DNA of 49,627 nt from Patescibacteria group bacterium (GTDB lineage: Bacteria; Patescibacteriota; Microgenomatia; UBA10105; UBA927). Position numbers and translations under genes: made by a program. The notes below the pieces were generated by a model. It did not search any database, was not told the DNA's origin, and saw only the letters and a list, made by a program, of their open reading frames with translations. This document shows, one piece after another, positions 14,876 to 20,240 of this stretch; position 1 is the first letter of the stretch; every line of letters begins with the position of its first letter. The stretch spans positions 73,231-122,857 of the forward strand of contig JAHJMO010000002.1 in NCBI GenBank assembly GCA_018821245.1, written 5' to 3'.

Positions 14876-14891
14876 CGCAAAATCTGATGTT
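14876..14891 (+). repeat. 16-bp direct repeat, copy 1
   Basis: cgcaaaatctgatgtt; identical copy at 16003-16018. Confidence 0.8.
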
Positions 14892-14950
14892 TATAATCCT
14901 GCCTGCCCGTCCGTATCCCGCTCTGACGGGAGAAGGAGGGAGTGCACTTG

Positions 14951-14992
14951 TGGTGAACGAGCTTGTCCTGAGCAATGCCGAAGGAGTCGAAC
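14951..14992. repeat. REP-like intergenic repeat
   Basis: tggtgaacgagcttgtcctgagcaatgccgaaggagtcgaac, resembling dispersed REP-type elements. Confidence 0.45.
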
Positions 14993-15071
14993 CAATCGAA
15001 GGAGAGAAAGTTTATACATGACGCTATTATATATCGTCTCCAATACCCATTTACACCTCATCAATATACCC

Positions 15072-15107
15072 TACAACAAATCAGTGCCATAGCGTAAATT
15101 TGTTGTA
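15072..15107 (+). repeat. 36-bp palindromic repeat, copy 1
   Basis: tacaacaaat-cagtgccatagcgtaa-atttgttgta, perfect 10-bp arms. Confidence 0.85.
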
Positions 15108-15121
15108 TGATGGACGTTTGA

Positions 15122-15808
15122 TTAAACCAACCCAAAATATTCCCGGTAGGGCGTGTCGTCCTCGAGCGTTATCGCAACTACATACAACACTTCATTACCG
15201 ACGCCATAGTATTCGCGTAAAAACGAAATCTGTTGCTCGCACGGGTACGGGTACAACCACACACTTTTCTGCAGCTGGAAAAATCCCAATGACTTGAGTG
15301 CCCCGCGAAACACATCGCGCAAGCGCTTCTTCCTGCTGTCCACATCATATATCACCATTCTCCATCGACCGTCCCATCGGCTAGGCGTGGCGATCACTAG
15401 TTCATCCAGCGCATATTTGAGGATCCGCCGCTTCCCATCTTCGGTCAATATCACCACGTCTTTACCATCACGCTGGGTTATATCGACAAACTTTTGCTGG
15501 TGTAAACGGCGAATTGATCGTTTCAAAAATGAAGGGTTATACCGTTTCCACAGATCGCGCTCTTTACGCCGTCTCTCATCCAAAAACGGTTTGGCAACCA
15601 TGACGGCGGATGGGGCAACCAACGACAATCCTACCAGGCCCGCTACCCCGATCCACGTCAGCACGTGTCCCACCGGTGCATACCGCCGATGTATATCTTC
15701 CTGCCGCATGTTTGCGGCCAAAAGCTGTGCCACTTCTGCTATCCGGTCATCAGACGGAACCGGCAATACCAATTTCGTCGATGTAGCCGTACCTGTTATC
15801 TTTTTCAC
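15122..15808 (-). CDS. membrane-anchored wHTH plus PaaX/Cas2-like protein
   Basis: TM helix (VLTWIGVAGLVGLSLVAPSAVMVA), winged-helix-like middle (LKRSIRRLHQQKFVDITQRDGKDVVILTEDGKRRILKY), Cas2-like C-terminus (WRMVIYDVDSRKKRLRDVFRGALKSLGFFQLQKSVWLYPYPCEQQISFL). GTG start with AGGAGGAG SD. Confidence 0.75.
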   Translation of the reverse strand: MKKITGTATSTKLVLPVPSDDRIAEVAQLLAANMRQEDIHRRYAPVGHVLTWIGVAGLVGLSLVAPSAVMVAKPFLDERRRKERDLWKRYNPSFLKRSIRRLHQQKFVDITQRDGKDVVILTEDGKRRILKYALDELVIATPSRWDGRWRMVIYDVDSRKKRLRDVFRGALKSLGFFQLQKSVWLYPYPCEQQISFLREYYGVGNEVLYVVAITLEDDTPYREYFGLV

Positions 15809-15831
15809 GTATATTCTCCTCCACTCTATAC

Positions 15832-15867
15832 TACAACAATATCACGCCATAGCGTATCTTTGTTGTA
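15832..15867 (+). repeat. 36-bp palindromic repeat, copy 2
   Basis: tacaacaata-tcacgccatagcgtat-ctttgttgta, 28/36 identical to copy 1 with the same core ccatagcgta. Confidence 0.85.
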
Positions 15868-16002
15868 AGGATGTGGGAGGTGGAGGATTAGGGAACAACA
15901 AAGCGGGAAAGGTTATGGCTGGGCAGGCATCGGCATCATCGGCCGCGCAATCCCCTTTCGGACTTTCAGATAATAACAATGCTTGCGCTCTTCATAGAGG
16001 TA

Positions 16003-16018
16003 CGCAAAATCTGATGTT
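16003..16018 (+). repeat. 16-bp direct repeat, copy 2
   Basis: cgcaaaatctgatgtt, identical to 14876-14891. Confidence 0.8.
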
Positions 16019-16150: not shown

Positions 16151-17018
16151 ATGGCTAGAAGATATCGAAAAATGGATTATTCCCTCGAAGGTGGACTGCG
16201 CATTCTTGCAGTACTTATTGTTTTATCTCTAGGATCACTTTGGTATTCGAATAGGGCATTGTTCACTGCATGGATATCACTTGGTGTAACGGCAGTTTTC
16301 GTAATTGTGGTTGGTGCGATTGCATGGTCTCAATTAAGGTCACTATTGAAAAAAAAATCGGCGAGATTCTGTGTTATTTGCCTTTAAACAAGCCAATCTT
16401 GAAGACTACGTCGAAAACTTTATTAACCGTTTCGGATTTGAAAAGAAAAAACACAATGTCTGGTCATTTCGAAATTATAGTTTTGACTGGGACAGGTTAA
16501 ACGACTTCAGAAAATTTCTTCATGATAAAGGTTTAGACATCTCAACCAACAGCTGGAACGATACGATTTTCTTGCTACAGTACTATATCCAAAAAAAAGA
16601 AGAAAACCTAACTACAGAGAGTATAGCGGGGAGTATAAGCGTGGTCCCGAGGAAGTTTGCCGACCTTTCAGGCGCTGATTTTGAAAGCCTTCTATTTCGT
16701 TTATTCACTGCAATGGGCTATGCAGTTCAAAAAACTGGAAAAACTGGCGATCAGGGTGGAGACTTAGTTATTAATAAAGATCAACAAAGAACATTGATTC
16801 AGGCTAAATGCTATAAGGATATGCCAGTCGGAAACTCCGCAATACAGGAAGCTGTTGCTGCGCAAAAATTTTATGATTGCACTGCATCAACAGTGGTTAC
16901 AAATTCAGGCTTCACCAAAGAAGCGATCGAGTTAGCAAGAGTAAATAAAGTTGAGCTCATCGGCGCAACACGTTTACGCGAGGTACTCCTGCAATACCTC
17001 AAAGATAACTGGAATTAG
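16151..17018 (+). CDS. membrane-anchored Mrr-like restriction endonuclease, frame-disrupted at an A9 tract
   Basis: Two-TM N-terminus (16151-16387) and Mrr-cat-like C-terminus (FESLLFRLFTAMGYAVQKTGKTGDQGGDLVINKDQQRTLIQAKCY) join at A9 16349-16357. Confidence 0.75.
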
Positions 17019-19545: not shown

Positions 19546-19812
19546 ATGAATAGCACTATGACATCGGCAAAAGTCTATACCCCGGAGCAGGTAGCGTCTA
19601 TCCTTCAGCTTTCAAAAAACACGGTCTACGCGCTTATCAACCGGGGGGAAATTATTGCCAAAAAGATCGGCAGGGTCTATCGTGTCCCTGTCAGTTCTCT
19701 TTCGTTTGTCTTTACGGGCTTGGACTATGATTTGTATAAAGCTGAAAAAGCAGATCTTGAAGAACTGTCCGCCGTTCAAAAAGAGATAACCAAGGTGCGC
19801 TCAATGATATAA
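19546..19812 (+). CDS. excisionase/MerR-type HTH protein (probable antitoxin)
   Basis: YTPEQVASILQLSKNTVYALINRGEIIAKKIGRVYRVP; directly upstream of a PIN gene. Confidence 0.85.
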   Translation: MNSTMTSAKVYTPEQVASILQLSKNTVYALINRGEIIAKKIGRVYRVPVSSLSFVFTGLDYDLYKAEKADLEELSAVQKEITKVRSMI

Positions 19813-19814
19813 CT

Positions 19815-20240
19815 ATGGCGCTCAAAATCTTTGTCGATACGGACGTGGTGATCTCTTCCCTCATTTCCCCAAGCGGCGCAGCGTTTCTTTTGCTCAACCA
19901 AACAGACGGACTCGAACTTTTTATTTCCAATATTTCAGCCCGGGAAATCAAAGACGTAGCCAAACGACTCCGTCTTGACACGGAAAAAGCAAAACAACTC
20001 ATAGAGAAGCGATGTTCTGTGGTACAACTACCGGAAGCTATCGGGAAAATAAAAACGTCCTTTGAAGACTATGTGTTGGACCGCAATGATGCACATATTG
20101 TCGCAGGAGCCGAGCGCGCACGCGCGCAATTTCTAATTTCGTACAATACCAGGCACTTCAAGGCGGATACATTAAAGGGTGATCTTCATATTATCCTCAC
20201 TACTCCGGCAAACTTTCTCCAATACCTGAGAAGCCGATAG
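19815..20240 (+). CDS. PIN-domain protein (probable toxin)
   Basis: MALKIFVDTDVVISSLIS...LDRNDAHIVAGAERARAQFLISYNTRHF. Confidence 0.85.
   Translation: MALKIFVDTDVVISSLISPSGAAFLLLNQTDGLELFISNISAREIKDVAKRLRLDTEKAKQLIEKRCSVVQLPEAIGKIKTSFEDYVLDRNDAHIVAGAERARAQFLISYNTRHFKADTLKGDLHIILTTPANFLQYLRSR

Follow-up and report, generated by a model that had tools for sequence, protein, structure and literature searches.

In the window (the whole 49,627-nucleotide stretch analysed here, from contig JAHJMO010000002.1 of a Patescibacteria group bacterium), a gene for a PaaX/Cas2-like protein is enclosed by two copies of a 36-bp palindrome and, further out, by two copies of a 16-mer. The first-pass annotation read this arrangement as a possible self-contained cassette, a gene with its cognate sites that would be either autoregulatory or mobile. 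Re-examination confirmed the coordinates of the gene, of the palindromes in the same orientation and of the paired 16-mers (Table 1). The open reading frame starts with GTG and encodes a product of 228 residues. The two palindromes are identical at 28 of 36 positions, including the arms (TACAACAA and TTGTTGTA) and the core (CCATAGCGTA), and a repeat search lengthens the match between them to 46 nt (74% identity).

Table 1. Coordinates of the bracketed gene, its palindromes and related features (positions refer to the window unless a locus is named)
Feature	Position	Strand	Basis or remark
Gene for winged-helix and Cas2-like protein	15122-15808	(-)	PaaX_M (8.5e-20), AF2 model, Foldseek, residue conservation
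Downstream 36-bp palindrome	15072-15107	.	14 nt 3' of stop codon
Core GCCATAGC in downstream palindrome	15086-15093		Sequence and family anatomy
Upstream 36-bp palindrome	15832-15867	.	23 nt 5' of start codon; probable operator
Core GCCATAGC in upstream palindrome	15846-15853		Sequence and family anatomy
-10-like box TATAGA adjoining upstream palindrome	15825-15830	(-)	Candidate, from sequence only; -10 enrichment in family
GGAGGAG, ribosome-binding-site-like, 5' of GTG start	15816-15822	(-)	Candidate, read from the sequence
Left outer 16-mer CGCAAAATCTGATGTT	14876-14891	(+)	Judged not part of the element
Right outer 16-mer CGCAAAATCTGATGTT	16003-16018	(+)	Judged not part of the element
Solitary palindrome, no gene	L142:7607-7652		G020; matches resident element type
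Solitary palindromes, no gene	L145:11044, L146:5113		G021; match resident element type

The best direct repeat between the upstream and downstream flanks was scored as matches minus mismatches, with flanks swapped between loci as a random control. The flanks of the window gene score 22, far outside the range of randomly paired flanks (10.4 +/- 1.5, n = 280, maximum 19), so the repeat pair is beyond chance. Far from being scattered genome-wide, the 36-mer occurs at two places only in the whole genome (1.08 Mb) when up to three mismatches are allowed. The outer 16-mer is likewise unique to its two places in the genome. Its proposed role as the boundary of the block did not hold, as outer direct repeats are not enriched around 93 bracketed genes (those lying between two palindromes): a score of at least 16 is reached in 2.2% of them versus 0.6% of controls. 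The 16-mer was therefore excluded from the common architecture. Chance or a local accident would account for it no worse than any other explanation, and we rejected it as a boundary or target-site duplication because such repeats are not general in the family.

A single locus cannot reveal that each gene has repeats private to it. The genome from which the window is taken carries ten homologues, and most of the other nine each lie between a palindrome pair of their own, all different in sequence. Using the same flank score in three sets of genes, we found that 30 of 35 genes from relatives reach at least 16 (99% quantile of the controls, 16.2), as do 69 of the 78 scoreable genes in 80 named loci, nearly all from Patescibacteria (controls, 1.9% for mismatched pairs and 2.7% for 184 other ORFs taken from these loci), and 45 of 70 genes drawn with the Pfam model, a set that includes some loci fetched twice (controls, 1.4%). 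Overall, 1-3% of controls reach this score. A few of the scoring repeats (L024, L098, L106) are not palindromes, and palindromes are visible at these loci too. Long PaaX-like forms are among the genes that lack the layout, and at least two loci counted as negative (L124, L169) do carry a pair of palindromes, whose cores are the same or similar and whose arms differ. Repeats and gene thus co-occur in related genomes, most relatives have the repeats, and the cassette view of the first-pass annotation gains support from private paired palindromes across the family.

PaaX_M genes are present in 90 of 287 sampled Patescibacteria genomes, with 1-11 genes per genome of about 1 Mb. The phylum-wide architecture is real and, with PaaX_M in about a third of the sampled Patescibacteria and most of the examined genes bracketed, the layout appears to be very common, and undescribed, in one of the largest radiations of bacteria. 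No published description of a palindrome-gene-palindrome layout was found in the open-access literature. Among phages and plasmids, no viral contig and no phage record carried the element, and three plasmids carried ordinary PaaX regulators only. Two bracketed genes lie in contigs binned as Thermodesulfobacteriota and as a proteobacterium (L066, L069), reflecting either transfer beyond Patescibacteria or mis-binning. At another locus (L224, G202 C5:34404-35019), two PaaX_M genes stand end to end, with bracketing palindromes around one only.

The assignment of the protein to a PaaX/Cas2-like family was borne out. It matches the PaaX_M model (PF20803) with 71.1 bits (cut-off 24; 8.5e-20), as do all 73 members of alignment set A3, and it misses the cut-off of the TIGR02277 PaaX equivalog (33.8 vs 264.55 bits) and, narrowly, the curated Cas2 cut-offs (18.7 vs 23.8 bits for Pfam and 22.4 vs 24.5 for TIGR01573). 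The AlphaFold2 model, built on 73 relatives, has a mean pLDDT of 84.8 and displays a winged helix (residues ~66-135) followed by a Cas2-like ferredoxin domain (149-224), with less certain helices N-terminal to both. In Foldseek searches, the best solved match is E. coli PaaX (PDB 8a39), followed by Rv0674 from Mycobacterium and by numerous Cas2 structures. Residues 53-71 are hydrophobic (Kyte-Doolittle 2.09) and modelled as helices with a pLDDT of about 66. Only 51% of the family reaches 1.6 in this stretch, which is thus not general, leaving the membrane location initially assigned to the protein unproven.

Residue conservation in the Cas2-like domain centres on Asp155, the counterpart of position 8 in the Cas2 models. 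This residue is found in all 144 bracketed proteins, together with Ser182 (143/144) and Gln180 (139/144), and its equivalent is kept in 28 of 32 unbracketed relatives; the position is occupied by Glu in E. coli PaaX and by Ser in Rv0674. Asp155, Gln180 and Ser182 correspond to the Cas2 signature of an Asp ending beta-1 and a Ser-containing turn. Cas2-family nucleases require the Asp155-equivalent Asp, and the Ser-containing turn is QYS in Sso Cas2 and SST in BPSL1038 (PMC10491678). It is Q-x-S in the window family. The conservation of Asp155 suggests catalysis. No invariant or near-invariant His or Tyr of an HUH/Y1 motif was found among 73 sequences, and Cas1 is absent from the genome of the window and present in 5 of 59 relatives.

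Across the family, the palindromes are 36-40 bp long and each gene has its own sequence. Of 93 elements, 83 have the dyad centre in register, and in 82 of these it falls between two bases. In the position statistics of the 164 sites of these 82 elements, whose cells and genes are not phylogenetically independent, a core GCnATnGC is shared (C-3/G+3 in about 90%), the linker at positions +/-5-9 is paired in only 0.6-0.66 of sites, and the arms at +/-11-18 are paired in about 0.7-0.9 with little or no consensus. These private outer arms recur in all four half-sites of an element, and beyond about +/-20 self-complementarity and between-copy identity both drop to background. Since the profile varies position by position, it points to constraint at particular bases rather than to uniform gene conversion, and the sites would fit duplex recognition by a protein dimer that contacts each half in two zones. 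Arm identity tracks protein identity: it is 0.85 between the arms of one element, 0.62-0.66 when the proteins compared are more than 60% identical, and 0.32-0.37 in all other comparisons. Sites and proteins thus change together. Proteins that are 74-78% identical with very different arms also occur (L073 and L100 in one genome; L088 and L126), and in these pairs the address formed by the arms evolves faster than the protein.

The two copies differ in their relation to promoters. A -10-like box is present after the upstream copy in 62% of elements, versus 35% for the downstream copy and 40% in shuffled sequence, so the upstream site is probably an operator. The downstream copy, which hugs the stop codon, is equally conserved, and an operator role does not explain this conservation. 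It was rejected as the promoter of the next gene, as -10-like boxes are not enriched there.

Presence and absence of the unit can be compared at two loci of one genus. At the first, G020 and G021 have the element between two divergent genes, and the same two genes are adjacent in G023 and G019, where the element gene and the palindromes are both absent. At the second, the element stands beside tRNA-Trp in G021 alone, and in five congeners its neighbours recur at a distance of 59-404 nt, where no element palindrome is present. Empty sites therefore exist at two loci, and the idea that a single 16-mer marks them is not supported; the palindrome is found in 0 of these 7 empty alleles. The whole unit is likely gained and lost together, and about 30% of the empty-site polarity could be loss instead of gain. 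For the window gene itself, a nitrilase-like neighbour tried as an anchor for empty sites is present in two relatives only and was discarded for this purpose. Palindromes that match a resident element also stand alone in G020, G021 and the genome of the window (C5:49549 and, weaker, C5:71223). The one in G020 lies between convergent genes that are about 20 nt apart in G007. The solitary sites of G020 and G021 share a contig with the element, at a distance of no more than about 40 kb.

The neighbours of the elements are unrelated and diverse housekeeping genes in mixed orientation, with no conserved operon partner. One element lies between secY and adk (L071), which are directly adjacent in L100; another is near secY/adk (L106), and others are beside rpoC, rpoB, ileS and pgk. 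At three of about 100 loci (L024, L098, L106), the 3' end of a neighbour gene is duplicated over 44-62 nt on the other side of the element, with differences that are mostly synonymous or conservative. These duplicates seem to have diverged as coding sequence before joining, as after integration at a gene 3' end. The genes concerned are ftsI, an unnamed gene ending ISKWNY and a cytidylate-kinase-like gene. Larger outer duplications at the DNA or protein level were rejected as a common feature, being confined to these three loci.

No near-identical copies were found at different places in the draft assemblies, which can hide recent identical copies. The closest non-syntenic paralogues in one genome (L073 and L100, 78% identical) share the ORF and not the palindromes, and in multi-copy genomes the nearest neighbour of a copy is sometimes another copy in that genome and sometimes one from a different genome. 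Neither a target-site duplication nor an inverted or terminal repeat outside the palindromes was found, and no circular form or excision product was observed. With no near-identical copies and no target-site duplications, active transposition is proposed rather than observed.

Several known systems share parts of this architecture. PaaX repressors (E. coli PaaX, 8a39; PF20803) have the same succession of winged helix and Cas2-like ferredoxin domain and would be expected to bind palindromes. However, most bracketed copies lack the PaaX C-terminal domain, the bracketed family keeps Asp155 in place of the Glu of PaaX, and its genes have a private palindrome at each end and no catabolic operon. 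Cas2/VapD-type nucleases, including BPSL1038, share the ferredoxin fold, the Asp ending beta-1 and the Ser-containing turn (PMC10491678), whereas the protein here, a putative nuclease, carries a winged helix, goes with private palindromes and has no Cas1 in its genome. A RAYT gene is stand-alone and invariably has on either side a palindrome characteristic of it, whose palindromic features are preserved by complementary changes (PMC2817692). The bracketed genes are likewise stand-alone single genes between two gene-specific palindromes, but RAYTs are IS200/IS605-type tyrosine transposases and the bracketed family has no invariant His or Tyr. In addition, REPs are inverted and high-copy, whereas the palindromes here are in direct orientation, with two places for the window 36-mer and few solitary sites for other elements. 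IS200/IS605 elements have a single small ferredoxin-type gene, a palindrome near each end and no target-site duplication. These traits recur here, but the HUH/Y1 motif does not, and the palindromes look like duplex dimer sites rather than strand-specific hairpins. RAYT/REP and IS200 are resembled in layout, and their defining features are absent. Of the hallmarks of insertion sequences generally, syntenic presence and absence is found (two loci, one genus), and near-identical multi-site copies or target-site duplications are not, in draft assemblies that can hide copies.

Taken together, we propose, with a probability of roughly 0.5, that the palindrome-gene-palindrome unit is a minimal single-gene element of Patescibacteria, gained and lost as such, whose protein binds its borders, may nick them and represses its promoter. 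In evolution, the unit behaves as an element. This reading is supported by the private pairs in three sets, the position-specific constraint in core and arms, the arms that track the protein, the -10-like boxes after the upstream copy and the invariant Asp155, as well as by the full and empty syntenic alleles, the solitary sites, the varied insertion neighbours and the three 3'-end duplications. It is weakened by the lack of near-identical copies, target-site duplications and circular or excision forms, by the share of empty-site polarity that could be loss, and by the promoter link of the upstream site, which also fits a plain autoregulator.

According to this proposal, the sole product, the winged-helix and Cas2-like protein, would act as a homodimer. 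It very probably recognises its border palindromes of 36-40 bp, and would do so by contacting, at the dyad, the core GCnATnGC common to the family and, at about +/-11-18, a private half-site that the winged helix would read. A dimer sitting on the upstream site, where site and promoter overlap, would repress the gene, and we consider such repression rather probable. Binding at both borders could allow the Cas2-type active site (Asp155, Q-x-S) to nick or cut there, and the unit would then enter or leave a locus whole, now and then leaving one palindrome. Mobilisation of the unit by its own Cas2-type nuclease is a tentative suggestion. More speculative still is a new class of mobile element, in which a winged-helix-fused Cas2-type nuclease would serve, without Cas1, as a recombinase that excises and inserts its own gene at its private pair of directly repeated 36-40 bp duplex palindromes. 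As the upstream site is promoter-linked and the unit is gained and lost whole, autoregulation and mobility may both hold.

The main rival is a plain autoregulator with two operators, namely a PaaX-like repressor binding at the promoter and past the stop codon, which would act by DNA looping or by blocking read-through or antisense transcription and would have no mobility of its own. Presence and absence would then reflect ordinary loss and horizontal transfer. The duplex, dimer-type sites, the promoter link of the upstream copy, the known repressors within the family and the absence of target-site duplications and recent copies are all consistent with such a regulator. Yet it would have no target genes among its unrelated neighbours of mixed orientation, and it does not account for an equally conserved downstream copy that hugs the stop codon without an adjoining promoter. 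The putatively catalytic Asp is moreover kept in all bracketed proteins though lost in real PaaX, and gain or loss takes both sites along. On balance, we regard this rival as less probable than the proposed element.

Domestication is less probable again. A REP/RAYT-like system, once mobile, could now serve a host role such as DNA processing at solitary palindromes and be inherited vertically, in agreement with the vertical, syntenic copies in some relatives (L095/L111, L114/L117, L054/L055), the slow divergence, the few copies and the existence of solitary sites. These sites are, however, very few, with none for the palindrome of the window itself, and they share no common position or neighbour; the strongly patchy distribution also argues against a maintained host function. 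A CRISPR-like event, in which insertion into a pre-existing palindromic target duplicates the palindrome as a spacer does its repeat, would suit the Cas2-like fold, the direct palindromic repeats of ~36 bp on either side and the solitary palindromes elsewhere. It is very improbable, as the empty alleles carry no palindrome, leading us to reject a pre-existing palindrome as the target, Cas1 is missing from the genome of the window and from all but 5 of 59 relatives, and core and arms track the protein, as expected of a site borne by the element. Just as improbable are transcript hairpins (terminators or processing sites) in place of DNA-binding sites. Some palindromes are perfect with paired changes between copies (L070, L073, L165, L172), which favours hairpins, but G.T mismatches are not in excess over A.C on the coding strand (111 versus 95), mid-arm pairing is weak, private matching pairs are left unexplained and no Rfam match exceeds the threshold.

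Patescibacteria are a large group of tiny, mostly uncultured bacteria, and the unit looks like an undescribed small genetic element. The family offers a natural library of over 100 proteins with individual recognition sites, from which the DNA-reading code of the winged helix could be derived. Should the protein move its own gene, this would amount to a new transposition chemistry on the Cas2 fold and bear on the origin of Cas2. If the new-class reading is true, it would describe a free-living relative of the Cas2 fold with a DNA-mobilising role of its own.

Three further features of the window were noted. Adjoining the element, a gene at 16371-17018 (+) encodes a stand-alone Mrr-type nuclease similar to Zorya ZorD and to type IV restriction nuclease domains. 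Further on, at 19546-20240 (+), an excisionase-type helix-turn-helix protein is followed by what looks, by its sequence, like a small PIN-domain-toxin-like protein, and this gene couple is possibly a toxin-antitoxin pair. A stretch at 14952-14993 containing GAGCTTGTCCTGAGC is present as a single copy in the window and resembles an intergenic repeat common in metagenome-derived bacterial genomes.
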